Positions 2,755 to 13,767 of a DNA stretch of 13,767 nucleotides are shown piece by piece. The translations under genes were made by a program, and so were the position numbers. The notes below the pieces were generated by a model. That model saw only the letters and a program-made list of their open reading frames with translations. It was not told the DNA's origin and made no database searches. The stretch's first letter is position 1, and each line of letters starts with the position of its first letter. Source of the stretch: Halieaceae bacterium (GTDB lineage: Bacteria > Pseudomonadota > Gammaproteobacteria > Pseudomonadales > Halieaceae); assembly GCA_011523115.1 (NCBI GenBank), contig WTHO01000198.1:1-13767 (forward strand), in the 5' to 3' direction.

Positions 2755-2760
2755 AGGGGA
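2755..2760 (+). promoter_or_regulatory. Ribosome-binding site that selects the start at 2766
   Basis: AGGGGA ends at 2760, where the first in-frame ATG begins, leaving that codon no spacing. The second ATG at 2766 sits five bases downstream, a normal distance, so translation most likely starts there. Confidence 0.7.
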
Positions 2761-2765
2761 TGACC

Positions 2766-3491
2766 ATGTCACGAGTACTAAGCGCACTGTGCGCTGTTCT
2801 ATTGCTGAGTGCCGCCTCAGCCAACAGCCAAACAGAACCCAATTATTCGAAGTTCCAGTCGAACTATTTTTTCACTTGCCCACAACCCGCCGCGTGTATG
2901 GGGGCCTTTGAAAAAATGCTGTCCGCTCCGGAGATTGCGGACAAAAACTTTGAGGTAACGCTCTATGCGCTTGGCCACAATGGCTGGGATGAGTCGACGC
3001 ATATGGTGTCTTTCTATTTCAAGAGCGCAGAGCGCTATCTGGAGGCGGGCCAAACCTTTGCGGCGTCACCTGCGTTTCAAGAATTCATGAAAGCAGGGGC
3101 TGCGGTCGGCGTTGAGAACCGAGCGCAAACGTTGACTACCCACAGCATTGTTGCGGGCGACGGGCGTGGCACCCGTAGCATGGTGAATTGGACGGTTAAG
3201 GTGAGTGACCCGGCAACGTTTGTGCCTGCTTGGCAAAAGTTCACGAAGGCCTCGGAGTCCTACCCCTGGGCCTCAAAAGCCTATGGACTGCAAACGCTAC
3301 TCTTGGGGAACCAAGGTTGGGCGACCCATCAGATATGGGCGGCTTTTGATACACCGGTTGACGCCCTCACATTCTTGGAAAACTTCTACCAGACACCGGA
3401 GTTTCAGACCTACAGCGAGGAGACTGAGGGCGCCGTTTCCTTGGTGAGAAGCTACATTGCCAATACGATGTTTGAGGCGAACCCCGACTGA
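2766..3491 (+). CDS. Secreted protein with two tandem copies of a dimeric-barrel-like domain
   Basis: The 241-residue product begins with a Sec signal peptide (MSRV, a Leu/Ala-rich core at about residues 5-17, likely cleavage near AASAN at 16-20), so it should be periplasmic or extracellular. I chose ATG 2766 over ATG 2760 because of the ribosome-binding site position. The mature part is made of two similar halves. In the first, LYALGHNGWDESTH (about 66-79) is followed by a strand, a helix and SPAFQEF (101-107). In the second, LLLGNQGWATH (178-188) is followed by a strand, a helix and TPEFQTY (210-216). The alternation of strand and helix in each half resembles the alpha+beta (ferredoxin-like) barrel seen in EthD and ABM proteins. 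Cys39 and Cys44 in the first half could form a disulfide. No catalytic motif is recognised and I cannot name a function. A strong hairpin follows the stop. Confidence 0.75.
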   Translation: MSRVLSALCAVLLLSAASANSQTEPNYSKFQSNYFFTCPQPAACMGAFEKMLSAPEIADKNFEVTLYALGHNGWDESTHMVSFYFKSAERYLEAGQTFAASPAFQEFMKAGAAVGVENRAQTLTTHSIVAGDGRGTRSMVNWTVKVSDPATFVPAWQKFTKASESYPWASKAYGLQTLLLGNQGWATHQIWAAFDTPVDALTFLENFYQTPEFQTYSEETEGAVSLVRSYIANTMFEANPD

Positions 3492-3506
3492 TTTAGGAAG
3501 GGGTTG

Positions 3507-3537
3507 GGAGGCGATTTGAATGGATCAAATCGCCTCC
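3507..3537 (+). terminator. Perfect 13-bp hairpin between convergent genes
   Basis: GGAGGCGATTTGA (3507-3519) is the exact reverse complement of TCAAATCGCCTCC (3525-3537), with a five-base loop ATGGA. It lies 16 bases after the stop of the secreted protein gene and before the end of the convergent small acidic protein gene, the usual place for a terminator. No T-run follows on either strand, so intrinsic termination may be weak, and a role in transcript 3'-end stability is also possible. Confidence 0.6.
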
Positions 3538-3589
3538 TATGCATGTAGCTTGAGGTGCGGCGGCTGGTTAGCTACCGACGTGCGCTGAA

Positions 3590-3940
3590 CTAATTGTTCT
3601 CCACCATCTCGATGATGTCTTCGTAGCTGTCACCGCTGTCTGAGTCGAAATCCTCCAGTTCGGAGGTGATGACTCGCGTGATCTCCCCTAAAAACAGCTC
3701 CCGGGTTTCGGCTCGTTGCATGAGTACGTCTTCAGACGGTTCGAAATTGTCGATATCAGACTGAGTAAGCAGCCCTTTCTCCCCAAGCAGGCGCTCAACG
3801 GTATCCATGCGGTCACGCATCACAGAGACCTCCCCCGCGAGCCCCATCAACATGGAAACCAGCTTGTCGGTATCCGGGTCGTCAAAAAACGTGGGGCGCT
3901 GCCCCTTGGCCTTCCGTTTGAGCTGAGCAGGCCCCTCCAT
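3590..3940 (-). CDS. Small acidic coiled-coil protein, translationally coupled to the methyltransferase
   Basis: I do not recognise this 116-residue protein. A longer frame opens at 3970, but the start at 3940 is preferred because its ATG overlaps the TAA of the upstream methyltransferase by one base (TAATG), a classic coupling arrangement. Residues 1-16 are basic (LKRKAKGQR). Residues 22-56 form a probable amphipathic helix or coiled coil with heptad-like spacing (DKLVSMLMGLAGEVSVMRD, then TVERLLGEKG). The second half is strongly acidic, ending in DFDSDSGDSYEDIIEMVENN. There is no signal peptide or membrane segment. Its fixed position behind the methyltransferase suggests a partner or stabilising subunit of that enzyme; this is inference. 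Expression would be under the same control as the methyltransferase, including the operator pair at 5164-5185. Confidence 0.75.
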   Translation of the reverse strand: MEGPAQLKRKAKGQRPTFFDDPDTDKLVSMLMGLAGEVSVMRDRMDTVERLLGEKGLLTQSDIDNFEPSEDVLMQRAETRELFLGEITRVITSELEDFDSDSGDSYEDIIEMVENN

Positions 3941-5109
3941 TATGCCTTCTCGCACCCATAGATGAACCACACACCGCCACCGCCGAAGTCCCCGCCCTGA
4001 AAAGTGCCCGACCTCTCGGCGTCGGCAATCTGGTAGGCGCTCGGTGCCATCACTGAAAACATTTTGTCGGCATCAAAACCGGCGTCTGTTGTGAGCTTTG
4101 GCAGGTCCAGCTCGTGTGAACGGCGCCAGAACGGCTCATTGTTGTTGGTGCTGTCCCAGTCGAGCATAAACGCGTCGAAGGGCTCCATGCCCTCATAGGG
4201 TGGCGTCTCGGCGTGCGCCATCAGGCCGCCTGGGGCAAGCAGTCGGTTGCACTCAGCCATGACATTTTTCACTGCTTTATCTGAGGTTTCGTGCATCAGG
4301 ATGTGCGAGACAACCAGATCGAAACTACCGTCTTCGAAGTCAGTCTTCTCAGCATTCTGTTGCGAGAAATGCACTGCCTTACCTTTTGATTCTGCGCGAG
4401 CGTGAGCATAACGAAGCATTGGCGCCGCGACGTCGATGGCATGCACCTCAGCGTCCGGCCATGCATCCGTGTAGGGAAGAGTGCTATGACCGACAGAGCA
4501 TCCCATGTCGAGAATTCTCTTGGGACTGAAGTCGGGGTAATTGTTCTTGATCCAAGCGATGACGCTATCGCCCATGTCGGCGTTGTCTCTGCCCATTTGA
4601 CCCATCGCATAGATGTAAACCGCACGGTCATACATTGCACCTTGGGCTACGTCGCCGTCGATGTATTCAGTGTGGTAGCCGCCTGGCTGACAATGAATAT
4701 CGACGGCACTGTGGTACTTGGGCAGTGGGAGGTCGGGGTCGAGCCGCAGAGACCCGATTGGGTCGGCTTGGGCTGCAGATGACGCCAGCTCGTTAATGCT
4801 TCTGGCTACCGGCAATTGCACCGAGGACCACATCATTTCCTGACTCGTTCTCAGCAGAGAGCTGAACATACGGTAGTAGGGGTCCGGCTTCATTACGGAC
4901 GCAACGTCATTCTTGTCACTGGGGCTGGCACCATTAGCGGCCTCAAACCGCTTCTTTGCCCGATGCTCGTAGGTGGTTCTCAGCCCCGGGTGGATGTTCG
5001 AGACGATGTGCTCTTTAAATGACCGGACGAACTGCTGTCTTGCGAGCTCGTCATGGTTTGTTTTGGGTAGGACGTCGTGTGCGTTCTGTTCTATCTGGCT
5101 CATCACCAT
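3940..5109 (-). CDS. Class I SAM-dependent methyltransferase with long N-terminal extension
   Basis: The 389-residue protein has a Rossmann-type methyltransferase core in residues of about 195-300. Motif I is ILDMGCSVG (199-207), the acidic residue that binds the ribose is in HAIDV (223-227), the adenine-side region is around QNAEKTDFEDGSFD (251-264), and NRLLAPGGLM (288-297) is the usual post-motif strand and turn. The first 190 residues have no assigned domain. They are mostly helical in character and include a conserved-looking YHTEYIDGDVAQGAMYDRAVY segment (145-165, given here only as its ends and the acidic/aromatic pattern). GGAGGG eight bases before the first ATG supports the start at 5109; MSQ two codons later is possible. 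It overlaps the small acidic protein and is divergent from the GntR gene, with two candidate operators between. O-methylation of a phenolic or carboxylic intermediate is plausible but unproven. Confidence 0.85.
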   Translation of the reverse strand: MVMSQIEQNAHDVLPKTNHDELARQQFVRSFKEHIVSNIHPGLRTTYEHRAKKRFEAANGASPSDKNDVASVMKPDPYYRMFSSLLRTSQEMMWSSVQLPVARSINELASSAAQADPIGSLRLDPDLPLPKYHSAVDIHCQPGGYHTEYIDGDVAQGAMYDRAVYIYAMGQMGRDNADMGDSVIAWIKNNYPDFSPKRILDMGCSVGHSTLPYTDAWPDAEVHAIDVAAPMLRYAHARAESKGKAVHFSQQNAEKTDFEDGSFDLVVSHILMHETSDKAVKNVMAECNRLLAPGGLMAHAETPPYEGMEPFDAFMLDWDSTNNNEPFWRRSHELDLPKLTTDAGFDADKMFSVMAPSAYQIADAERSGTFQGGDFGGGGVWFIYGCEKA

Positions 5110-5163
5110 GTCGATAACCCTCCGTTATATTCAATGGGCGCCCAAAAGACGGGCCTATAAGCA

Positions 5164-5185
5164 ATTGCAAACAATTGCATGCAAT
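5164..5185. promoter_or_regulatory. Two overlapping candidate GntR operators
   Basis: ATTGCAAACAAT (5164-5175) and the perfect 12-bp palindrome ATTGCATGCAAT (5174-5185) overlap by two bases, so their centres are 10 bp apart, one helical turn. They lie in the 182-base gap between the divergent methyltransferase and GntR genes. The same motif recurs at 6087-6098 and 9555-9566. FadR/FCD-type GntR regulators commonly bind short palindromes of the form TTG-x4-CAA or TGT-x-ACA, so autoregulation and control of the methyltransferase by the adjacent regulator is likely. Confidence 0.75.
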
Positions 5186-5291
5186 ATACCCCCAGCATGC
5201 GGGGCGGGCAACCTTGAAGCGAAATCTCAGGGTCAGGTCGGCTTCATGTTATAATCTGCATATCCGCCCAAAGAAAGCGAGCGTTTAGTTG

Positions 5292-6014
5292 ATGTCCCCA
5301 CGAGTTCATGCCCCCCTGCAACTCGCCACTGAAGCGGCCTACAGTGGAAGGGATGACGTTAGTGAGGCGTCGGCGAAACCGAGTGAGATTTCGCACGTAG
5401 ACCGCCTCGTAAGGGGCATTATCGATGGATTCAGGGAAGGACGCTATCAGCCCGGAGAACGCTTGGTAGCCGCTGATCTTGCGGCTCAGTTCAATGTTAG
5501 CCGCGCGCCGGTGAGAGAGGCTCTGGCAATATTGGTAGGAGAGGGTGTTGTAGAAATCAAGAAAAATTATGGCGCGCGGATCAGAACCTTTTCCATAGAC
5601 GAGTTGGTTGAGATTATGGAGGTGACCGAGGCTGCTCTAGTGCTGGGGGTGCGCAGGTGCGCAGAGCGTATAAGCACTGCATCGCTAGAGGAATTAGCGC
5701 GGTTGGACGGATCCTTCGAGCAAATGGAGGCCGCATGGCACGCCCACGATGCTGCCGACTTCGTCGACAGCATCTACTATTTTCATAATGTCGTTAATGC
5801 CATCGCGGGCAACAGATTTCTGGGTTTTGTATACCAGCGACCGCACTTTGCATTTTTCAACCGTCATTTGGCTGCAGCGCTGCCCGGGCCGGGTTGGGAT
5901 GAGTATCTGGACAGTTACCGTCGCGTTTATAACAGTATTCGCAAGGGTCAGGTGCATGCGGCTCAAGCAGCGTTTTCTGCTCATATGCAATGGGCAATAA
6001 GCCTTATGAAATAA
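5292..6014 (+). CDS. GntR family transcriptional regulator, FadR/FCD subfamily
   Basis: The 240-residue protein has an N-terminal extension of about 30 residues, then the GntR winged helix-turn-helix at about 37-100: GRYQPGERLVAADLAAQF (50-67), followed by NVSRAPVREALAIL (68-81) and the wing GVVEIKKNYGARI (85-97). Residues 103-240 form the all-helical FCD effector domain, including FHNVVNAIAGN (164-174). The usual third metal-binding His, normally in an EH-x-x-I/L context, is replaced here (RVYNSIRKG, 211-219), while His165 and His231 remain. An ATG at 5292 is preferred over the overlapping TTG at 5289; the ribosome-binding site is weak (AAGCGAG). It is divergent from the methyltransferase and upstream of the cupin and FAD oxidase. 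FCD regulators usually sense organic acids and act as repressors of catabolic genes; the ligand here is unknown. Confidence 0.92.
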   Translation: MSPRVHAPLQLATEAAYSGRDDVSEASAKPSEISHVDRLVRGIIDGFREGRYQPGERLVAADLAAQFNVSRAPVREALAILVGEGVVEIKKNYGARIRTFSIDELVEIMEVTEAALVLGVRRCAERISTASLEELARLDGSFEQMEAAWHAHDAADFVDSIYYFHNVVNAIAGNRFLGFVYQRPHFAFFNRHLAAALPGPGWDEYLDSYRRVYNSIRKGQVHAAQAAFSAHMQWAISLMK

Positions 6015-6021
6015 GGGCTTA
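5998..6021 (+). terminator. Hairpin overlapping the GntR stop codon
   Basis: TAAGCCTTAT (5998-6007) pairs with ATAAGGGCTTA (6011-6021) with a GAA loop and a one-base bulge. A T-rich stretch (CTATTTATATTTTT) lies about 20 bases further on, too far for a classical intrinsic terminator, so this is a possible weak terminator or mRNA 3' structure. Confidence 0.35.
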
Positions 6022-6086
6022 CTGGCCTCTGCTCATTCTATTTATATTTTTGCCCCTCTCTCGGCACAGTTCGGCCTTACCCTCGG

Positions 6087-6098
6087 ATTGCATACGAT
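6087..6098. promoter_or_regulatory. Candidate GntR operator before the Tat cupin gene
   Basis: ATTGCATACGAT matches the palindromic motif seen at 5164-5185 and 9555-9566 with one mismatch to symmetry. It and the 9555 site also share the two bases CC that follow. It lies 49 bases before the GTG start of the cupin gene, and its TACGAT half could overlap a -10 element, a position suited to repression. Confidence 0.65.
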
Positions 6099-6146
6099 CC
6101 TTGATTTAGTTAGGCTCGTGTGAAAACAACACAGGGGAGGTAGGAC

Positions 6147-6689
6147 GTGGATAACATAAAAAGCAGAGAAGACGTGGGTCGCCGGCAGGTTCTCAACGCC
6201 GCGGGGTTCGGGCTACTCGGTCTGGTTGGGGCATCGCTCTCAGCACAGGCCCAGCAGGGCGCTGCGCCGTCTCCCAGATCTGCATTTGAAGCGCACAAAA
6301 TCGATCACGACGTCATGGAGAAAGCCCCGTTGCTTGATCTGCCGTTTTCGGACGGGATCAAGATTCGGGGTTACTCGGCAATTAATCAGCCCAACTGTCA
6401 GGTCATCATCGAGGACTTTTTTCCCGGCGATGAATTTGAGTGGCAGTTCCCCCACGACGAAATTCAGTACTGTCTTTCGGGTTCCATGCAGTTAACGGTG
6501 TGGTCACCACCCCTCTACGCCGAGCGTGTGGACACTGTGATCGAACCGGGCACGCTGTATAACTACCCCATAGGAACCCGTAAGCGGGTCAAAGTGCTAG
6601 GGGATGAGCCGTTTCGGCATATCTGTTTTTGCCCCCCCAGCCCAAACTATCCGTTTCCTACAGCTGACGATGTGCGCGCTATGGGGTGA
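6147..6689 (+). CDS. Tat-exported cupin protein
   Basis: The 180-residue protein starts with GTG, supported by a strong GGGGAGG six bases upstream. Its N-terminus has a twin-arginine signal: GRRQVL at residues 11-16, a hydrophobic stretch of Ala/Gly/Leu at 17-32, and a likely AQA cleavage site at 33-35. The product should therefore be folded, possibly with metal bound, before export to the periplasm. The rest is a single cupin barrel. EDFFPGDEFEW (89-99) leads to PHDEIQYCLSG (102-112), and a second motif GDEPFRHICF lies at 152-161. His103, Glu105 and His158 are the candidate metal ligands. The two canonical His residues of the HxH part are missing, so the site is reduced or atypical. It is clearly paralogous to the cytoplasmic cupin at 11392-11820. 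It precedes the FAD oxidase by 72 bases and probably shares its operon. The reaction is unknown; isomerase, dioxygenase or lyase roles are all seen in cupins. Confidence 0.85.
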   Translation: MDNIKSREDVGRRQVLNAAGFGLLGLVGASLSAQAQQGAAPSPRSAFEAHKIDHDVMEKAPLLDLPFSDGIKIRGYSAINQPNCQVIIEDFFPGDEFEWQFPHDEIQYCLSGSMQLTVWSPPLYAERVDTVIEPGTLYNYPIGTRKRVKVLGDEPFRHICFCPPSPNYPFPTADDVRAMG

Positions 6690-6761
6690 GGCGCCGCCGT
6701 CACGGGTGTGCGGTATGACATTTGAACCCTTGTACGCCGAGAGGCACCGGGAGCTAATACT

Positions 6762-8351
6762 ATGAACCAAGCTATTTCAGAGACACGTCCTCTCATCGAG
6801 GGCATACAAAGTATCGTCGGCGCAGATTACTGCCTCACCGATGAGCGAGACAGGGATTTCTACTCAACTGATCTGAGCTTCAGAGAACGCGAGATCGCGG
6901 AGGCTGTCGTTCAGCCGCAGAGCACCGACGAACTCTCATCCGTGGTGTCTCTCGCACATCAGGCCGGGTTTAACGTGGTTCCGCGAGGGGGCGGTATGTC
7001 CTACACCAGTGGTTACACGCCGGCCAAGGATCGAACCATTCTCATTGATATGCGGCGTATGAATCATATCCTCGAGATTAACGAGGAAGATATGTACGTC
7101 ACAGTGGAGTGCGGATGCACCTGGAAGGAGCTATACGAAGCCCTGTCTGAGAAAGGCTTGAGAACGCCGTACTTCGGGCCGCTGTCGGGCAAATATGCCA
7201 CTATCGGTGGCGCGCTATCCCAAAACAGTCTGTTTATGGGGAGCGGTGTGCACCACACTGTCGCCGAGAGCGCCCTGGGTTTAAGAGTGGTGCTGGCCAA
7301 TGGTGATGTTCTTCAGACTGGCTCGGGCGCCCATCGTCACAGTAATCCCTTCTACAGACATTTTGGCCCTGATGTCACGGGTATGTTCACTGCCGACACC
7401 GGCGCCTACGGTATCAAGGCAGTTGCCACACTGAGGCTTGTTCAGGCGCCGAAGTCCACCGCCTACATGTCATTCCGCTTCGAGACGCTGGCAGAGTGCC
7501 TTGAAGCGCAGGTTGAAATTGCGCGATTGAGCATCTGTTCCGAGTGCTATGGCTTTGACCCCTACTACAACGACGGGTTTGAGAAGCAGGGCATCACGTT
7601 TGAGGAGGGCGTGTCGATTGTCGGCAAGGTCGCCCGCAAAGGAGGTTTAAAAGGACTCGGGAAGGCGGCCAAGTTGGCGATGGCGGGGAAAACATTCCTT
7701 AACGGCGTCCCTTACTCTCTGCACATGACTTTCGACGGTCTCAACGATGTCGTCACCAACGAACATCAGGAGATCGCTGCAGAGATCTGCCTCAGGCACG
7801 GCGGAACCGAAATGGTGAATTCCATACCTACGGTATTTCGGGCTGAGCCGTTTGGCGGGGTTCGGACCGTCCTTCTGGGTTCGGAAGGGGAGCTGTGGAT
7901 TCCTGTGCACGGTTTCTTCCCGCTCTCGAGGGCGGTGGAAGCCGGTGCCACGACTGAACGATTCTTTGAGGAGAATCGAGAGTTGATGGAGAAGCACAAT
8001 ATCAGAACCTCTTACCTCACTTGCTTCTCGGGGGCCGAGTTCGTCATCGAGCCCAGTTTCTACTGGCACGATGAACTGGGTGAGTTTCGATTGAGCCTGA
8101 TCGAAGAAGAATTCGCTGAAAAATGGAAAGATATTCCTGCTGATCTCGAAACGCGTAAGGTGGTTCTTGAACTCCGTGAGAAGCTGGCGACGCTTTTTGA
8201 TGAGTTGGGCGCATGCCACTTGCAGATAGGCAAGTACTACGATTACCAGGGAATGATCACCAACGAGCCTCTCAAAGGCATGCTGAAGGGGATCAAAACC
8301 ATGGTCGATCCAGAGGGCAAAATGAATCCTGGTTGCCTGGGCTTGGAGTAG
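6762..8351 (+). CDS. FAD-dependent oxidase/dehydrogenase, GlcD/VAO type
   Basis: The 529-residue protein is a member of the VAO/PCMH flavoprotein superfamily. The FAD-binding N-terminal half shows VVPRGGGMSYTSGYTP (about 72-87), ILIDMRRMNHI (94-104), YVTVECGCTW (112-121), and GGALSQNS followed by a conserved GSGVHHTVAESALGL stretch around 156-175. FGPDVTGMFTADTGAYGIK (about 202-220) is the usual second half of the FAD site. The C-terminus ends with DPEGKMNPGCLGL, the typical DP-x-G-x-MNPG cap motif of this family. Length is normal for GlcD or 4-cresol/vanillyl-alcohol oxidase relatives; the form of the motifs is closer to GlcD-type. There is no signal peptide, so it should act in the cytoplasm, oxidising a hydroxy acid, alcohol or phenolic substrate. 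GGGAG eight bases before ATG gives the start. It follows the Tat cupin and is convergent with the monooxygenase. The substrate cannot be inferred. Confidence 0.88.
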   Translation: MNQAISETRPLIEGIQSIVGADYCLTDERDRDFYSTDLSFREREIAEAVVQPQSTDELSSVVSLAHQAGFNVVPRGGGMSYTSGYTPAKDRTILIDMRRMNHILEINEEDMYVTVECGCTWKELYEALSEKGLRTPYFGPLSGKYATIGGALSQNSLFMGSGVHHTVAESALGLRVVLANGDVLQTGSGAHRHSNPFYRHFGPDVTGMFTADTGAYGIKAVATLRLVQAPKSTAYMSFRFETLAECLEAQVEIARLSICSECYGFDPYYNDGFEKQGITFEEGVSIVGKVARKGGLKGLGKAAKLAMAGKTFLNGVPYSLHMTFDGLNDVVTNEHQEIAAEICLRHGGTEMVNSIPTVFRAEPFGGVRTVLLGSEGELWIPVHGFFPLSRAVEAGATTERFFEENRELMEKHNIRTSYLTCFSGAEFVIEPSFYWHDELGEFRLSLIEEEFAEKWKDIPADLETRKVVLELREKLATLFDELGACHLQIGKYYDYQGMITNEPLKGMLKGIKTMVDPEGKMNPGCLGLE

Positions 8352-8394
8352 GTCAGGCTAGCAAGCGATCGTCTGGCGTTGCTGTCTGATTAAT

Positions 8395-9456
8395 TCAGAG
8401 GCACGCCAGGCGTGGCTTGATCTTTTCTCCGAAATCCCTGATACCGCCGACAAAGTCGGCCCAGCTGAACAGCATGCCGTCCACCCCTGTCTCCTCTGCG
8501 ATTTCGTCGATCTTGGCGCTTACCGTCTCATATGAGCCGTAAATCGTTGGGAAGCCCATAAACGCCATGTTGCCCACCTCAAGGTCCTGTTTCATCGCTT
8601 CTTGAAGGTGGTCTGAGGTGCCGCCCTCATTAGAGTCCATAGCGGCGCTATTGATGATATTCCCAATGGCTCCCATGTCGGCGCGTTGGATGATGTCGTC
8701 ACCAATCTCTTTCGCCTTCTCGTCAGTTTCTGCAGTGATGATGTTGAACAGCGCGTAGGTGCCTACCTCTCGTCCTATGGCAGCCCCCTTTGCTTTGACA
8801 CTGTCGCTTATATCTTTGAGTTTTTCGGGGTGCGCCATCACGAAATTCTGGTGCGCGTGCTGGGCGACGAATTCGACTCCCTTCGGTGACATACCTGCGC
8901 TGACGATCGGAATGTCCCGCCCGGGTGTGGGCAGGCAACTGCATTCCTCAAGATCGAAGAACTCACTCTTGTGGGTGCATTCCCCCGTGCGCCACAGTTC
9001 CTGCAGGATCTGAAGATACTCGGCAGCATATTCGTAGCGTCTCTCGTAATATTCATCACCGCGCCACAGCCCCATTTGCGTGTACTCAGGCTTGTTCCAC
9101 CCGGTGACGATATTCAAGCCGCATCGGCCGCCACTCATGTCGTCCAGCGTCGCGATCATTCGGGCCACGTAAGCAGGATGCTGACTCAGCAGAGTGACGG
9201 TAGGAATAATGCCAATAGACTGGGTGTTTGCTGCCAGACCGGCCATGAGCGTGAAAGATTCCAGGCACGCGTCCCAATACCCCGTGTCCCCACCGAAGCC
9301 CTTGAACTTCATCATTGATAATACGAAGTCGAGGCCCTGTTTCTCGGCCTCCACCGTGATCTCCAAATTGTGCTGGTAGGTCGGCAGGTAGGGGGTGACC
9401 GCGTTGGAGATTATGTAGCCGTTACTACCGTTCGGCAGGAATACACCAAATTTCAT
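8395..9456 (-). CDS. RutA-like FMN-dependent monooxygenase (luciferase-like family)
   Basis: The 353-residue protein is a bacterial luciferase-like flavin monooxygenase closest, by motif recall, to RutA pyrimidine oxygenase. Shared features include FGVFLPNGSNGYIIS (3-17), LESFTLMAGLAA (65-76), ARMIATLDDMSGGR (98-111), NIVTGWNKPEYTQMG (115-129), GDEYYERRYEYAAEY (133-147) and LWRTGE (154-159). The VTGW-KPEY-QMG block is highly characteristic of RutA and related sulfone/alkane oxygenases. RutA opens uracil by a flavin-N5-peroxide mechanism and needs reduced FMN from a partner reductase. No flavin reductase and none of the other rut genes are in the window, so FMNH2 must come from elsewhere. GGAG seven bases before ATG supports the start. 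It is divergent from the SnoaL operon across a gap with a GntR-type operator. The likely role is oxygenative C-N, C-S or C-C bond cleavage of a ring; the substrate is unknown. It is not necessarily uracil. Confidence 0.9.
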   Translation of the reverse strand: MKFGVFLPNGSNGYIISNAVTPYLPTYQHNLEITVEAEKQGLDFVLSMMKFKGFGGDTGYWDACLESFTLMAGLAANTQSIGIIPTVTLLSQHPAYVARMIATLDDMSGGRCGLNIVTGWNKPEYTQMGLWRGDEYYERRYEYAAEYLQILQELWRTGECTHKSEFFDLEECSCLPTPGRDIPIVSAGMSPKGVEFVAQHAHQNFVMAHPEKLKDISDSVKAKGAAIGREVGTYALFNIITAETDEKAKEIGDDIIQRADMGAIGNIINSAAMDSNEGGTSDHLQEAMKQDLEVGNMAFMGFPTIYGSYETVSAKIDEIAEETGVDGMLFSWADFVGGIRDFGEKIKPRLACL

Positions 9457-9554
9457 GCTGACTCTCCGTCAATCAGTGGAGCGGTTTGCTATGTCCGTAA
9501 CGCCGTCTCGCGAAGGCAAATGAGGCGTCCTCCAAAAGTCTACTCTAGGGTTAC

Positions 9555-9566
9555 ATTGCATACAAT
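9555..9566. promoter_or_regulatory. Candidate GntR operator between monooxygenase and SnoaL operon
   Basis: ATTGCATACAAT is a near-perfect palindrome and lies 46 bases before the GTG of the SnoaL gene and 98 bases from the ATG of the divergent monooxygenase. Its TACAAT half resembles a -10 hexamer. A single site here could control both directions. It is the best match to the sites near the GntR gene. Confidence 0.7.
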
Positions 9567-9611
9567 CCGAGTGTAGGATCAGAGTAATAACAGATAAGAA
9601 AGGGGTGATAC

Positions 9612-10109
9612 GTGTTAACACGACGAGATCAACTCAAGTTGATGACAGGGGCGCTAACGCTGGCTAGCCCCATGATTGCGGCATGGACCTCAGCGTCCGA
9701 GGCAGATAGTTCCGGGGTCGAGGCAGCCTTTAACGAGATGGTTGGTGCGCTCAAGTCTGGGAATCTCGACGGCTTCTACGGTGCCATGCATCCGGCATTC
9801 ACAATGATCGACGAAGACTCGCCTTTCCGCATGAGCAAAGCGGAGTTTCAGGACCACATCGGATTCCATGTCAGTGGCATTTGGGAGAGTTTTGAATGGA
9901 AGCCGTTGACGTTCGAGTCGCGAGAATTCGGTTCCAGCGGGACGATTACCGGTTTCGCAACCTTTAGGGGCAAGCCGAGGGACGCTGGCTTCCGGATCAG
10001 ACATTTGATGTTTGCACAGACCTGGGCCAGAACGTCTGCTGGATGGGAACTGGTTCTGTGGCATCAGAGCCCTGTTGATGGCCATATCTTCGGCGTGTCA
10101 CCCACTTGA
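9612..10109 (+). CDS. Tat-exported NTF2/SnoaL-like protein
   Basis: The 165-residue product begins at a GTG with AAAGGGG just upstream. Residues 3-8 (TRRDQLKL, including 9-10) form a twin-arginine motif followed by a hydrophobic segment (11-24), so it should be exported folded to the periplasm. The mature domain fits the NTF2/SnoaL-like fold. A helical start (VEAAFNEMVGALKSGNLDGF) is followed by AFTMIDEDSPF (62-72), then DHIGFHVSGIWES (81-93), RGKPRDAGFRIRH (119-131) and WELVLWHQS (145-153). The RGKP-x-D-x-GFR-x-RH stretch, together with Asp67-Glu68-Asp69 and His82/His86, is shared with the next protein, so these are probable active-site or structural residues. SnoaL-type proteins include cyclases, isomerases, lyases and non-enzymatic binders. 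It is the first gene of the six-gene operon. The family call is firm, the activity unknown. Confidence 0.82.
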   Translation: MLTRRDQLKLMTGALTLASPMIAAWTSASEADSSGVEAAFNEMVGALKSGNLDGFYGAMHPAFTMIDEDSPFRMSKAEFQDHIGFHVSGIWESFEWKPLTFESREFGSSGTITGFATFRGKPRDAGFRIRHLMFAQTWARTSAGWELVLWHQSPVDGHIFGVSPT

Positions 10110-10112
10110 TCT

Positions 10113-10118
10113 AGGAGG
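10113..10118 (+). promoter_or_regulatory. Ribosome-binding site that decides the start at 10126
   Basis: A consensus AGGAGG seven bases before GTG at 10126 shows that the second SnoaL-like gene starts there and not at the upstream ATG at 10012, which would lie inside the preceding gene. Confidence 0.8.
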
Positions 10119-10125
10119 TCCCCCA

Positions 10126-10542
10126 GTGTCAACGAACAGTGAGCAGTTAGAGGCCGCATTTTTGGCGGCGTTCAGCTTTGACGCCGAGGAAGGGCAGACG
10201 GCGTTCGAAAAATTTCTTGATGACAATGCGACGGTGATTGATGACGACCAGACCAATATTCTTGATAAAGCAGGCTGGCTGGATCACTTCGCTTTTCACA
10301 GTGCCAAGTTATGGGAGTCTGTCGAGATAGTTCATTACGACATCGAATCTCAGATCATTGGCGAGACCGGAGTCGTCACCTCAAATTACACAATCCGGGG
10401 AAAGCCTGTCGATGATGGCTTCAGGCTGAGACATGGCGTTTGTTCCGCGAGTTGCTATCTGTCGGGAGATGGTGAGTGGAAGGCGATGTCAGTCGTCCTT
10501 GGACCTATGATGAGTTACGTCCGTAACGCATCCTCAAGTTGA
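10126..10542 (+). CDS. Cytoplasmic SnoaL-like protein, paralogue of the preceding gene
   Basis: The 138-residue protein has no signal sequence. The GTG start is fixed by the consensus AGGAGG. It shares with the upstream Tat protein DDD (39-41, after VI), WLDHFAFHSAKLWES (51-65), and RGKPVDDGFRLRH (91-103), in the same order and spacing, which makes them tandem paralogues that differ in location. The C-terminal strand (WKAMSVVLGPMMSY) replaces the aromatic WELVLWHQS of the other copy, so the two are not interchangeable. The gap to the upstream gene is 16 bases and to the next gene 19 bases. It probably acts on the same type of molecule as the periplasmic copy. NTF2/SnoaL-like assignment is by pattern, and the reaction is unknown. 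Confidence 0.82.
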   Translation: MSTNSEQLEAAFLAAFSFDAEEGQTAFEKFLDDNATVIDDDQTNILDKAGWLDHFAFHSAKLWESVEIVHYDIESQIIGETGVVTSNYTIRGKPVDDGFRLRHGVCSASCYLSGDGEWKAMSVVLGPMMSYVRNASSS

Positions 10543-10561
10543 GCAACCGGAGGCTCTCAAA

Positions 10562-11347
10562 ATGTCGATAGTAAAAGGTTACGTGCAGACCGACTTAGGC
10601 CAGATCCACTACAGAAAAAAAGAGGGCGAGGGACTGCCGATCGTTTGCTTCCACCAGACAGCGAGTTCCTCTGCGATGTTCGAGGCCTTTATGGCCGAGT
10701 TCGCTGGCTCAAACCCCATTATTGCCTTAGATACGCCTGGCTTCGGGGGTTCCTACGATCCAATAGATGAACCAACGATGGATCAATACGCGGATCAAAT
10801 GGTTGATGCCATGCGCGGCTTGGACATCGGCAAGGCTCATTTATTCGGGCACCACACGGGCGCCAGTATCGCCGTAGAGATCGCCGCGCGTTACTCAGAT
10901 CTGAGCGAATCCTTGACCATGATTGGTCCGGTGGTGATTACGCGCGAAGAGGCTGAAATGTTCAAGCAGGTTTACCCGAAGGATTTTTCTCTCAAGGCCG
11001 ACGGCTCTCACATCATGAAGATGTGGGCGTATGTGGAGGAAATTGGCGGCAACCACTCCCTTGCGCTGCATCACCGCGAGTTTGTCGATACGGCGAGAGC
11101 ATGGGAAGGGCACATAAAAATGTATTCCCAGATATGGGATCAAGATTTTATTGCGCTGTATCAGGCGGTGCAGTGTCCGATGCTGATCATGTGCTCAGAG
11201 AATGATGTGCTGTGGAGCATCTTTGAGCGCGCGCAGGAACTGAGGCCAGACGCGAGCGTGAAAGTTATTGCGGGATCCAATTTTCAGCTTGACGAAGCGC
11301 CGGGGGAGGTCGCCTCAGCGGTACACGCACTGATATCTGAGGGGTAA
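10562..11347 (+). CDS. Alpha/beta-hydrolase-fold protein with noncanonical triad (copy 1)
   Basis: The 261-residue protein has the alpha/beta-hydrolase layout: IVCFHQTASSSAMFE (27-41) at the oxyanion-hole loop, LDTPGFGGS (56-64), the nucleophile elbow FGHHTGAS (95-102), and LIMCSENDVLW (208-218) with the acid Asp215. The elbow has His98 where Ser, Asp or Cys normally stands, and Thr99 next to it. The region of the catalytic His (usually GGGHF-x-x-E-x-P) reads AGSNFQLDEAP (237-247), with Asn240 in place of His. A standard Ser-His-Asp hydrolase mechanism is therefore unlikely. It may be a lyase, decarboxylase or ring-modifying enzyme, or use another residue. GGAGG precedes the ATG by eight bases. 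It is a close relative of the last operon gene (12813-13610). It lacks a signal and is cytoplasmic. Confidence 0.85.
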   Translation: MSIVKGYVQTDLGQIHYRKKEGEGLPIVCFHQTASSSAMFEAFMAEFAGSNPIIALDTPGFGGSYDPIDEPTMDQYADQMVDAMRGLDIGKAHLFGHHTGASIAVEIAARYSDLSESLTMIGPVVITREEAEMFKQVYPKDFSLKADGSHIMKMWAYVEEIGGNHSLALHHREFVDTARAWEGHIKMYSQIWDQDFIALYQAVQCPMLIMCSENDVLWSIFERAQELRPDASVKVIAGSNFQLDEAPGEVASAVHALISEG

Positions 11348-11391
11348 GCTCGGTCATTCCAATATCATGAACATAAAAACAGGAGGACGTT

Positions 11392-11820
11392 ATGTCTGAC
11401 AAGGCCATTACTTGGGGAAAAATAAAGGTATATGACATTCAGGATTCTGATCTTGATACCGCGGAGGACATGGAGTTTCCATTCCATCCGGGATCAAGAT
11501 TCAGGGCGGTCAACACAGGCATTGACGAGCCATCGGTGCAGATCAATTACGAGGATTTTTTCCCGGGGCAAGATATCGCCTGGGTCCTGCCCCATGATGA
11601 GGTGCAATACGTCGTCTCAGGGACGGCCGAGATTGATTACTGGTTGCCGCCACTGATGCTGGAAAGTGGCACCGTCTCAGTGAAGCCCGGCAGCATCGTC
11701 TATTTACCACGTGCATCCAGAGTCGTATGGAGAGTGACCAGCGAGGAGCCCCTGAGACACCTTTGTGTGTGCTACCCCAACCCCGGTTACCCCGTTGCCA
11801 CAGCGCCCAGCGTTGCCTGA
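11392..11820 (+). CDS. Cytoplasmic cupin, paralogue of the Tat cupin
   Basis: The 142-residue single-domain cupin has no signal peptide. It parallels the exported copy: YEDFFPGQDIAW (53-64), PHDEVQYVVSG (67-77), WLPPLM (84-89), KPGSIVYLP (98-106) and EEPLRHLCVCYPNPGYP (118-134). Candidate metal ligands are His68, Glu70 and His123; the two-His HxH part of the standard cupin motif is absent in both copies. AGGAGG five bases before ATG gives the start. It lies 44 bases after the first alpha/beta-fold gene and is separated from the MDR gene by three bases. The shared architecture suggests the same reaction in two compartments. The reaction itself is not recognisable. Confidence 0.85.
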   Translation: MSDKAITWGKIKVYDIQDSDLDTAEDMEFPFHPGSRFRAVNTGIDEPSVQINYEDFFPGQDIAWVLPHDEVQYVVSGTAEIDYWLPPLMLESGTVSVKPGSIVYLPRASRVVWRVTSEEPLRHLCVCYPNPGYPVATAPSVA

Positions 11821-11823
11821 GTA

Positions 11824-12804
11824 ATGCCCAAGGCACACGTGATCAAGAACTTCGGCGGTCCTGAGGTTCTGGAATGGGGCGAGGTCGAGGTTGCTGATCC
11901 GGGGCCGGGCGAGGTCAGGCTGCGACAGCGGGCCGTTGGGATGAATATGATGGAGGTCGGCCTCCGCATGGGGGTATACCCCGGGCCGCCTTTACCCTTC
12001 ATCCCCGGCGTGGAGGCCGCCGCTGAGGTCATCGCGTTGGGTGAGGGCGTCACAGATTTCAAAGTAGGCGACAGGGTCGGCTATGCAGGTCCACCGGTGG
12101 GAAGCTACGCGGAGGAGCGCAATTTCCCCGAGAGCAGGCTGTTCTCGCTCCCGGACGACATTACTGACGTGGTCGCTGCGGCGTCTATGGTGAAGGGAAT
12201 CACGGCCGAGTGCCTTATGCGATTAACCTATGAGGTGGGGCCCCAAACCAAAGTGCTGATTCATGCTGCGGCGGGTGCCACGGGGGCTATGTGTGTTCAG
12301 CTGGCCAAGCATCTGGGCGCAGAAGTGTTTGGCACGGTAGGCTCTGCTGAGAAGGTCGAGTTTCTGAAAAGTCTGGGTTGCGATCACGTTATTCTGTATC
12401 GCGATCAAAACTTTGCAGACGCTGTGCTTGACCTAACTGAAGGCGAGGGGGTGGATCTGTGCCTCGATTCGGTGGGCGCTGAGACGTTTGAAGACTCGGT
12501 AAGGTGCACCCATATACTGGGAACCGTAGGTTTGTTCGGTGTTGCCAGCGGCCAGCCTGAGCCTGTGCATCTCATGTTGCAGGATCTTGAAACCGCCCGA
12601 AAATTCGTCAGGCCCTCTATCTATGCCTACACCAAAGCGACGGAGCAACTTCGGGCCTTGGCGCGCCAAACCTTCGAGGACATTAGCGCGGGTGTGCTGA
12701 AGCCCACGATTCATGCTCAGCTCCCTTTAAGCGAGGCGCCACAGCTGCACTCAATTATTGAATCCCGCGCCTCGATTGGCTCCTCAGTCATGCTCTGCGA
12801 TTAG
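11824..12804 (+). CDS. Zinc-independent MDR oxidoreductase, quinone-oxidoreductase-like
   Basis: The 326-residue length is that of NADPH:quinone oxidoreductases. The N-terminal substrate domain shows FGGPEVLEW (10-18), GMNMMEVGLRMGVYPG (39-54), which replaces the family's usual VN-x-x-D-x-x-R-x-G-x-Y, and PFIPGVEAAAEV (58-69). The Rossmann domain carries HAAAGATGAMCVQLAKHLGAEV (147-168, quoted here by its ends; the glycine motif is AAAGATG with Ala where the second Gly usually stands). The zinc-binding Cys and His residues of alcohol dehydrogenases are absent. It should reduce an enone, quinone or acyl double bond with NADPH. The gene is packed between the cupin (three bases) and the second alpha/beta-fold gene (eight bases), so it is part of the operon. 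Crotonyl-CoA reductase-like activity on a CoA thioester is also possible. Confidence 0.9.
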   Translation: MPKAHVIKNFGGPEVLEWGEVEVADPGPGEVRLRQRAVGMNMMEVGLRMGVYPGPPLPFIPGVEAAAEVIALGEGVTDFKVGDRVGYAGPPVGSYAEERNFPESRLFSLPDDITDVVAAASMVKGITAECLMRLTYEVGPQTKVLIHAAAGATGAMCVQLAKHLGAEVFGTVGSAEKVEFLKSLGCDHVILYRDQNFADAVLDLTEGEGVDLCLDSVGAETFEDSVRCTHILGTVGLFGVASGQPEPVHLMLQDLETARKFVRPSIYAYTKATEQLRALARQTFEDISAGVLKPTIHAQLPLSEAPQLHSIIESRASIGSSVMLCD

Positions 12805-12812
12805 GAATCACT

Positions 12813-13610
12813 ATGACGACGATACGAAAAGGCTACGTAGACTGCAGCGAGGGCCAGATTCACTACCGCGAAGCCGGCTCCCCTGAAAATCCAACAGTCT
12901 GTTTCCTCCATCAGACAGCTAGCACTGGCGCCATGTTTGAGAAGGTCTTAGCGATCTTGGGTGCCGACTACCATTGCTTTGCATTGGATACGCCAGGGTT
13001 CGGTCAATCGTTCCAGCCCGCAGCCATCCCAGATCTTCAATATCCCGCGAGATTATTGCTAGAGGCCATTGAGGCGCTGGGTGTCTCGGAATTTCACCTC
13101 TGTGGTCACCACACTGGGGGTTGTATCGCGGTAGAAATGCCGGCAATCACCCCGATTTCGATTAAGAGCCTCTCGATTATCGGCCCGGTGCTCGTTACAG
13201 AAGAGCAGCGTCAAGAATATATGAAGACGTTTGTGAAGCCTTTCGAAACCGAGGAGAGTGGTGAGTTTCTCATGACAGCCTGGAACTACCTCGCTTTAAT
13301 CGGAGCGGCAGAGACCCTAGAACTAAGGGTTCGCGAGATGCATGATCACCTCATCGCCAATAAGACGATGCCGATGGCGTTTTCCGCGGTCTGGCGACAG
13401 GATTTCGAAGCTGTCTATCGAGGGCTGGAGACACCGTTATTGGTCATGTGTTCTGAAGACGATGTGTTGTGGCCGCTTTTTGAACGTGCGCTTGAAGTGA
13501 GACCTGATGCAGAATCTGCTGTGGTCAAGGGCGGAGACTTCCAGCCAGATAATGACCCTCAGTCGGTGGCAGAGGCGCTGGGTCGATTCATCAGTAAAAT
13601 AGAAGGCTGA
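12813..13610 (+). CDS. Alpha/beta-hydrolase-fold protein with noncanonical triad (copy 2)
   Basis: The 265-residue paralogue of the gene at 10562-11347 shares KGYVxxxxGQIHYR near its start (6-19), FLHQTASTGAMFE (31-43), LDTPGFGQS (58-66), the elbow CGHHTGGC (97-104), LVMCSEDDVLWPLFERA (210-226) and a C-terminal KGGDFQPDNDP (239-249). His100 stands at the nucleophile position and Asp242 at the place of the catalytic His; the acid is Asp217. The two copies thus agree on His at the nucleophile position but differ at the base position (Asn versus Asp), arguing for selection on the elbow His and loss of the normal relay. AGGA six bases before ATG gives the start. It is the last gene of the operon, convergent with an ABM-type gene. 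Confidence 0.85.
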   Translation: MTTIRKGYVDCSEGQIHYREAGSPENPTVCFLHQTASTGAMFEKVLAILGADYHCFALDTPGFGQSFQPAAIPDLQYPARLLLEAIEALGVSEFHLCGHHTGGCIAVEMPAITPISIKSLSIIGPVLVTEEQRQEYMKTFVKPFETEESGEFLMTAWNYLALIGAAETLELRVREMHDHLIANKTMPMAFSAVWRQDFEAVYRGLETPLLVMCSEDDVLWPLFERALEVRPDAESAVVKGGDFQPDNDPQSVAEALGRFISKIEG

Positions 13611-13635
13611 CCCGCAGATCAGCCGGGTTGCTCGG

Positions 13636-13767
13636 TTATAGACTGGTGTCGACCGCGAAGCGAATAATGGGCGGCGCGTCCAGCATGGCTGCGAGCTTAT
13701 CCATCACGCCACTCTCGGTGCGCCAGGCAAGGTATTTCTCATATTTGCTCTGATCTTCCCAGTGCTC
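13636..13767 (-). CDS. ABM-type monooxygenase-like protein, C-terminal fragment (5' end outside window)
   Basis: The frame runs from the right edge of the window to a TAA at 13636-13638 and gives the last 43 residues. The visible part reads HWEDQSKYEKYLAWR (2-16), a helix pattern ESGVMDKLAAML, and a terminal strand PPIIRFAVDTSL. The E-x-W-x-(D/S)-x-x-x-Y-x-x-Y-x-x-W-R helix followed by a beta strand fits the C-terminal half of antibiotic biosynthesis monooxygenase (ABM) domains, as in quinol monooxygenases. These are small cofactor-free oxygenases or accessory dimeric barrels. It is convergent with the alpha/beta-fold gene, with 25 bases between stops. Assigned by pattern only and from a fragment. 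Confidence 0.6.
   Translation of the reverse strand, partial: EHWEDQSKYEKYLAWRTESGVMDKLAAMLDAPPIIRFAVDTSL

Follow-up and report, generated by a model that had tools for sequence, protein, structure and literature searches.

Matched exported-type and signal-less cupins and SnoaL-like proteins in a putative catabolic cassette of a Halieaceae bacterium

We analyzed a 13,767-nucleotide stretch of DNA from a Halieaceae bacterium (assembly GCA_011523115.1, contig WTHO01000198.1; hereafter the window), which is the entire contig C55 of the host assembly (label G000; 2.08 Mb in 290 contigs, 79% complete). The window carries a gene cassette in which a cupin and a SnoaL-like protein are each encoded twice, once with a twin-arginine translocation (Tat)-type signal (cupTat and snoTat) and once as a signal-less paralogue (cupCyt and snoCyt). 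We favor the reading, with a probability of roughly 0.45, that the cassette is a catabolic regulon for a small and probably cyclic molecule, with its enzymes split over two compartments. The substrate would enter the periplasm, probably through a TonB-dependent receptor, and the Tat-exported cupin and SnoaL-like protein would be the first to convert it, still on that side. Their product would then cross the inner membrane, and the remaining enzymes would act on later intermediates inside the cell: an oxidase that binds flavin adenine dinucleotide (FAD), a monooxygenase resembling RutA, two alpha/beta-hydrolase-fold proteins that lack the catalytic triad (abh1 and abh2), a quinone-oxidoreductase-like enzyme (QOR), and the internal cupin and SnoaL. 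The coordinates of all of these genes are given in Table 1.

The four open reading frames (ORFs) of the two pairs lie where an earlier note on this DNA had placed them, each with a purine stretch like a ribosome site on its 5' side. The note had also named motifs shared within each pair (PHDE-x-QY and EPxRHxC in the cupins, RGKP-x-D-x-GFR-x-RH in the SnoaLs), and these are indeed present in both members. The N-termini of cupTat, GRRQVLNAAGFGLLGLVGASLSAQA, and snoTat, TRRDQLKLMTGALTLASPMIAAWTSASEA, each contain RR followed by a moderately hydrophobic stretch, with a best 15-residue Kyte-Doolittle mean of 1.78 and 1.51, respectively. The same measure gives -0.19 for cupCyt and 0.68 for snoCyt; a Sec-like protein encoded at 2760-3491 of the window reaches 2.31, above both exported-type proteins. 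A hydrophobic stretch milder than that of a Sec signal is expected for Tat. The host genome encodes TatC (G000:C25; 251 bits, cut-off 25.1). From these N-terminal sequences we infer that cupTat and snoTat are exported by the Tat pathway.

The double arginine is kept among relatives that bear a signal. It is present in 16 of 18 distinct signal-bearing SnoaLs, the exceptions being P0127, which is the match to the Exilibacterium protein discussed below (SGR), and P0135, which may be truncated at its start; among signal-bearing cupins it is found in 17 of 18, and the 18th (P0013) looks cut at its start. The N-terminal extension is absent from the signal-less SnoaL clades.

Searching a collection of genomes from 84,980 species with an alignment of exported-type SnoaLs yielded 33 loci. 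The cassette itself was found three times: in the window, in a metagenome-assembled genome of Exilibacterium (L007), and in the alphaproteobacterial assembly AG-426-B21 (L008), perhaps a single-cell genome to judge by the style of its name. In all three cassettes snoCyt directly follows snoTat. The DNA surrounding the other 31 loci, often cut by a contig end, contains no second SnoaL, neither kind of cupin, and no close FAD oxidase (L015 has a FAD-oxidase match at 24%). A fourth tandem is probably formed by P0125 and P0163: both branch with the SnoaL pair of the window, and the longest contig given for each of them has 29,369 bases.

In a search of limited sensitivity, the snoCyt subfamily had five matches in 5.8 billion proteins, and a snoCyt profile found nothing in 397 other genomes at E 1e-8. 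The cupin is absent from all 139 other genomes of the host family; in the class of AG-426-B21, where 385 genomes were searched with the Tat cupin, three gave a match at E 1e-20, namely AG-426-B21 and two others whose matches are all of the cupCyt type. Plasmid searches for the Tat cupin and the Tat SnoaL gave no match. In the searched host genome, each of the two families has two members, all of them inside the window.

The two SnoaLs share 44% identity over 68 amino acids (E 1e-18), and both score above the cut-offs of SnoaL/NTF2-like families; the NTF2-like fold is taken from the snoTat model, which matches 3fsd and 3hx8. When 17 exported-type and five internal sequences are compared column by column, D69, D81, H82, R119-G-K-P, R128, R130, and W145 are common to both subfamilies. 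In the internal SnoaLs, W138 is changed to C and Q152 is lost in all five sequences, and H151 is lost in four (the L008 protein retains it). The five internal proteins form one clade (support 100/97) that branches in the order L008, L007, P0163, and the window with P0161. Exported-type SnoaLs branch in a similar order, L008 standing apart, followed by L007 and by P0125 with the window and P0122; we read this as agreement and not proof, since some forks on the exported side are open. Of 19 rows labelled as exported SnoaLs, 18 form one group (96/93), and the remaining one, from L008, branches next to this group at an open fork. Long branches lead to the internal SnoaLs, and snoCyt of L008 is flagged as long. 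As judged from these alignments and trees, the internal SnoaLs are a separate clade, evolving fast, whose specificity has probably changed.

The cupins are 36% identical over 131 amino acids (E 9e-34), and 29 columns are invariant across 19 sequences of the exported-type and five of the internal subfamily, including H103, D104, E105, R157, H158, C160, and C162. The cupTat model is a double-stranded beta-barrel with fold matches to the cupins 4e2g, 5fq0, and 2vqa. The usual metal-ligand motif of cupins is HxH...E...H; by our reading of the cupTat sequence, W99, F101, and K146 replace the histidines and E105 is kept, so that a metal site, if there is one, must be unusual. No characterized enzyme that the cupTat and snoTat models match in fold is near enough to name the reaction.

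The lack of the classical HxH ligands would suit a model where the exported cupin and SnoaL bind or capture a poorly soluble ligand in the periplasm, as chaperones and not as enzymes, and the internal ones alone are catalytic. So would the weak family score of cupTat (Cupin_2 18.4 bits, cut-off 27.2) and the many non-enzymatic NTF2-like hubs in the Foldseek list. But H103, D104, E105, H158, C160, and C162 are invariant in both cupin subfamilies, as are D69, D81, H82, and the RGKP loop in the two of the SnoaLs. Such a pattern is more typical of active sites, and we consider this explanation improbable.

Internal cupins also form a single clade (100/100), made up of the window and L008 proteins, one from Exilibacterium contig C44, and those of G301 and G170, two genomes from the class of AG-426-B21. 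On the cupTat side of the tree, at least three changes of signal are needed. The L007 cassette cupin, 54% identical to cupTat, is placed at the base of that side; given this basal position and a warning from the tree program that long branches come together there, it could represent a third cupin type. The signal therefore looks like a switchable trait among the cupins and a stable trait of one SnoaL group. Since both trees separate the exported-type from the internal members, the pairs are best seen as old sister subfamilies that have been kept together; recent duplication of the cupin and SnoaL genes is rejected, the sisters falling in separate supported clades. The internal cupin has probably kept its chemistry and acts, we would suggest, on a related intermediate.

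For the cupins, strict mirroring across the membrane is plausible; for the SnoaLs it is doubtful. The earlier note had offered two interpretations: that equivalent steps run on both sides of the inner membrane, or that the exported copies handle an incoming substrate and the internal ones a later intermediate. The second is the better supported. Strict equivalence is not supported, given the loss from the internal SnoaL clade of residues conserved in the exported one, and given the Exilibacterium locus, where the cupin is signal-less and the SnoaL reads SGR; the idea of equivalent steps suits the cupins, in which 29 columns are invariant across both subfamilies, more than it does the SnoaLs, whose internal members have lost W138 and Q152. 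A fully mirrored pathway, in which the exported and internal sisters descend from one divided set of enzymes and perform matching chemistry on a larger, incoming form of the substrate outside and on a fragment of it inside, seems to us unlikely.

The same data bear on the possibility that the four proteins catalyze four different steps of one pathway, their subfamilies having been recruited independently, the signal being gained or lost by lineage, and nothing being done twice. This is a serious possibility: the pairs are old and divergent (36% and 44% identity), the signal has changed repeatedly on the cupin tree, the internal SnoaLs have lost conserved residues, and the Exilibacterium cassette has a signal-less cupin. 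Yet independent recruitment sits poorly with a SnoaL tandem that is conserved in three of three cassettes with similar branching orders, with invariant cupin columns that include all candidate active-site residues, and with the exported-type forms found in several of the cassette families of L008.

Alternatively, the exported pair could be a protective or detoxifying outer layer, converting a toxic compound ahead of its entry into the cytoplasm, and the internal pair could deal with leakage, the same reaction taking place on both sides. This would explain true duplication, best for the cupin pair, and possible joint control, but the other genes look catabolic (the FAD oxidase, the RutA-like monooxygenase, and QOR) and the SnoaL pair has diverged at conserved residues; we regard it as decidedly improbable.

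The L008 locus is what best supports an incoming substrate for the exported enzymes in our two-compartment reading, because a TonB-dependent receptor gene (4303-6597) is found 326 bp upstream of the gene for the Tat cupin (3392-3976), both on the minus strand, and the Tat SnoaL gene diverges from the receptor gene. An FMN (flavin mononucleotide)-reductase-like gene follows the Tat cupin gene on this strand. In the mirrored reading, AG-426-B21 would show the fuller form: Tat-type N-termini are seen there not only on the cupin and the SnoaL but also on a hydrolase-fold protein without the nucleophile Ser, on a 251-amino-acid protein of no Pfam family, and, on another contig, on a relative of the window's methyltransferase-like protein. 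The hydrolase-fold protein in question, one of three in L008 (7811-8788), begins with a Tat-like KRRSFVV stretch, a feature that hinges on the choice of start codon, as a later in-frame ATG would make it match its signal-less relatives. A crude filter for Tat signals, which misses this KRR protein and is too coarse to yield a probability, picks out 2 of 16 ORFs in the window, 3 of 20 in L008, and 0-2 per stretch in nine others. A second TonB receptor of AG-426-B21, 61% identical to the first, is encoded on contig C7, and a Tat-type relative of the window's methyltransferase-like protein is found about 3 kb away.

The spacing of the genes is close: gaps of 3-44 bp separate the members of the six-gene run snoTat-snoCyt-abh1-cupCyt-QOR-abh2, and 72 bp lie between cupTat and the FAD oxidase. 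A 14-base palindrome around TTGCATRCAA occurs before cupTat and between the monooxygenase and snoTat, and weaker copies precede the regulator gene (5164-5187). The pattern, which was derived from the window itself, has seven matches there compared to a shuffled mean of 1.99, and one of 200 shuffles scored as high. These operator-like sites appear to fit one regulon in the window. Some of the matches in L007 (including 1253-1264 and 2081-2091) precede the genes of the regulator and of the first hydrolase-fold protein, in places that partly correspond to those in the window.

A number of observations weigh against a two-compartment regulon, the start-codon dependence of the L008 hydrolase-fold protein among them. 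Counts of the operator-like pattern are not above chance in L007 (6 compared to 4.86) or in L008 (13 compared to 15.5). The L007 cassette has the same gene families with a cupin that has no signal and an exported-type SnoaL that carries SGR in place of SRR; cupin export therefore does not look obligatory. Across a sample of 115 members of the cupTat subfamily (120 of 125 matches, with eight dropped and three added), 97 have no signal. Family scans recognized no transporter among the scanned window genes, and in the incomplete host genome the L008 TonB receptor has only distant relatives at E 1e-30, none of them a clear orthologue, the best match being 36% over 237 residues. Finally, the cassette is too rare for a statistical test of co-occurrence.

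Absence of the cupin from the other 139 genomes of the host family would also fit chance assembly or a mis-binned contig. The tetranucleotide distance of the cassette half (5200-13767) to the host's own contigs, 0.182, falls just outside the range of those contigs (0.100-0.178 for 11 of at least 4 kb, these being the ones listed from 16 own stretches pooled in the test). But the whole window, at 0.147, lies inside this range, the other half is at 0.156, and the L007 and L008 relatives with the same SnoaL tandem contradict a chance pairing. Mis-binning, moreover, would alter the host and not the pairing. As a stretch from a genome of the same family (L079) falls at 0.165, the test is unable to separate close relatives; a mis-binned contig is not supported by the composition of the whole window, in a weak test. 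We hold chance or mis-binning to be very improbable. The earlier note had named unrelated pairs brought together by chance as an outcome that would refute it, and the recurring tandem together with the SnoaL and cupin trees contradicts this outcome.

Its other enzymes give leads on what the cassette may act on. The monooxygenase matches RutA end to end and retains L65, T105, N134, V136, and F224 (numbering placed on the PDB chain by count), whose roles in the oxygen pocket of RutA are described in PMC7662398. Because of this match and the five retained pocket residues, the enzyme likely performs flavin-N5-type cleavage of a cyclic amide or a similar compound. With the curated RutA model TIGR03612 it scores 363.7 bits, below the cut-off of 498.3, and membership in uracil catabolism (Rut) is rejected on this score. 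A 74% identical relative from AG-426-B21 (L055:17576-18673) lies 3' of genes for molybdenum hydroxylase, a ureidoglycolate-lyase-like protein, and a class-III aminotransferase; this neighborhood points to a nitrogen heterocycle, which we treat as a lead only. In L055 these genes and the RutA-like monooxygenase form one run (11812-18673), and a second RutA-like gene lies on the opposite strand (10476-11546).

A third paralogous pair in the window is formed by abh1 and abh2, which are 42% identical and both internal. All nine cassette-type members (two each in the window, L007, and L052, and three in L008) have GHHTG at the nucleophile elbow and no catalytic C-terminal His; the two from L052 adjoin a FAD-oxidase relative there. 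In nine wider relatives linked to FAD oxidases, the nucleophile place is taken by H or A, never S. For comparison, the L053 hydrolase has both Ser and His, and that of L055 has Ser and no His in that column. Because the nucleophile Ser and the catalytic His are absent, abh1 and abh2 are probably not hydrolases of the usual kind. As a literature search word, GHHTG returned no report, and a plasmid search for abh1 returned one record, from N. resinovorum (35%).

In 12 stretches around FAD-oxidase relatives from the same order (11 from other genomes and one on host contig C33), there is a relative of abh1/abh2 in eight and of QOR in four. Plasmid relatives of the FAD oxidase (12 records) sit in varied clusters, such as hydantoinase/oxoprolinase and aconitase, and therefore no substrate can be named from the neighborhood. 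The host has a second FAD oxidase, 39% identical, on contig C33 (L071 2832-4463).

Table 1 Features of the cassette and its flank in the window.
Feature	Position	Strand	Evidence
GntR/FCD-type regulator, probable cassette controller	5289..6014	+	Pfam GntR 53.4 bits, FCD 47.9 bits; 44% relative in L007
Operator-like palindromic site 5' of the Tat cupin	6085..6100	.	ATTGCATACGATCC on +, imperfect match on -; exact pattern copy at 6087-6100
Exported-type cupin (cupTat), Tat-type signal at residues ~1-36	6147..6689	+	Predicted cupin fold, pLDDT (predicted local distance difference test) 83.7
FAD-binding (VAO/GlcD-like) oxidoreductase	6762..8351	+	FAD_binding_4 131 bits; 71% to L008, 68% to the cut L007 copy
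RutA-like FMN monooxygenase	8395..9456	-	RutA structures E 7e-88; 5/5 RutA oxygen-pocket residues kept
Second operator-like site, flanked by the divergent genes of the monooxygenase and the Tat SnoaL	9555..9568	.	Exact match ATTGCATACAATCC
Exported-type SnoaL-like protein (snoTat), Tat-type signal at residues ~1-29	9612..10109	+	SnoaL_3 30.7 bits (cut-off 22); predicted NTF2-like fold, pLDDT 83.1
Signal-less SnoaL paralogue (snoCyt), own clade	10126..10542	+	DUF4440 27.7 bits (cut-off 25.2)
Alpha/beta-hydrolase-fold protein 1 (abh1), without the Ser-His pair (GHHTG)	10562..11347	+	
Signal-less cupin paralogue (cupCyt), own clade	11392..11820	+	EutQ 25.8 bits (cut-off 21)
Quinone-oxidoreductase-like (medium-chain dehydrogenase/reductase) enzyme, QOR	11824..12804	+	ADH_zinc_N 90 bits; 37% to L008
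Alpha/beta-hydrolase-fold protein 2 (abh2), without the Ser-His pair (GHHTG)	12813..13610	+	
Class I methyltransferase-like protein, accompanies FAD-oxidase relatives elsewhere	3940..5109	-	Methyltransf_25 81 bits
Small conserved partner of the methyltransferase-like protein	3590..3970	-	Relatives in the same neighborhoods; no Pfam family at E 1

The methyltransferase-like protein is encoded near FAD-oxidase relatives in L040, L047, L052, and L053. Together with its partner of ~110-130 amino acids, it is seen near such relatives on sphingomonad plasmids, in G279, and in genomes of the AG-426-B21 class, an observation that also takes in L103. The partner in L052 is longer, with 222 amino acids and a lysine-rich start, and a Pfam scan of four partners assigned no family. 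On the minus strand of L102 (14771-15967), a methyltransferase-like relative has a Tat-like N-terminus, MLDRRTLLN, and a methyltransferase domain scoring 68 bits; for an exported protein of this type, the supply of a methyl donor in the periplasm would be puzzling. Proteins of ~250 amino acids with signal-like starts and no Pfam family are encoded at 2760-3491 of the window and at 1975-2730 of L008, the former Sec-like and the latter Tat-like. Relatives of the L008 protein adjoin cupCyt-type genes in L091 and L092.

Literature searches aimed at this gene set or at the paired layout found nothing alike among the papers listed, in keeping with the earlier note's remark that it knew of no described pathway of this kind. 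Individual features do have counterparts in known systems. The monooxygenase resembles RutA closely (E 7e-88 end to end, with the oxygen pocket kept), but abh1 and abh2 score weakly on the RutD model (40.7 and 44.4 bits, cut-off 238.5), and scanning the window genes for protein families brought up no other member of the Rut system. MncA and CucA of Synechocystis, according to PMC11742986, are both periplasmic cupins with identical metal-binding residues, one of which is exported by Tat after folding inside the cell. MncA (2vqa) is among the fold matches of cupTat; unlike this system, one of the window's cupins is signal-less and the HxH ligands are missing. The FAD oxidase shares its FAD-binding domain with enzymes of the vanillyl-alcohol oxidase (VAO)/GlcD type, such as eugenol oxidase and p-cresol methylhydroxylase (best PDB match 8s7t, E 3.5e-26). 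In the best 60 of its 72 PDB matches, the best-matching stretches lie within about residues 2-270 of 529 (13-227 for the top match), and because the matches are confined to this part, the substrate of those enzymes is not transferable.

As a whole, the cassette would work most like catabolic pathways with periplasmic first steps, as in LinA and LinB. These are NTF2/SnoaL-fold and alpha/beta-fold enzymes that start the breakdown of gamma-hexachlorocyclohexane in sphingomonads; going by the title of a 1999 report by Nagata et al. (J Bacteriol 181:5409), they are reportedly found in the periplasm 'without molecular processing'. The likeness extends to the NTF2/SnoaL and alpha/beta folds, and the two systems are compared here by location only. 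Unlike LinA and LinB, the cassette has Tat signals that look cleavable, along with internal paralogues. Periplasmic catabolic enzymes as such are already known; it is the addition of internal sister enzymes that would be unusual, and if our reading is true, matched exported and internal sisters represent an unusual way to organize a pathway. Little has been described of the families involved: the cupin lacks the usual metal ligands, the SnoaL subfamily is very rare, the hydrolase-fold proteins lack the usual nucleophile, and the RutA-like monooxygenase falls below the RutA cut-off. With the same fold available for comparison on both sides of the membrane in one cassette, the division of work between paralogues would become testable.

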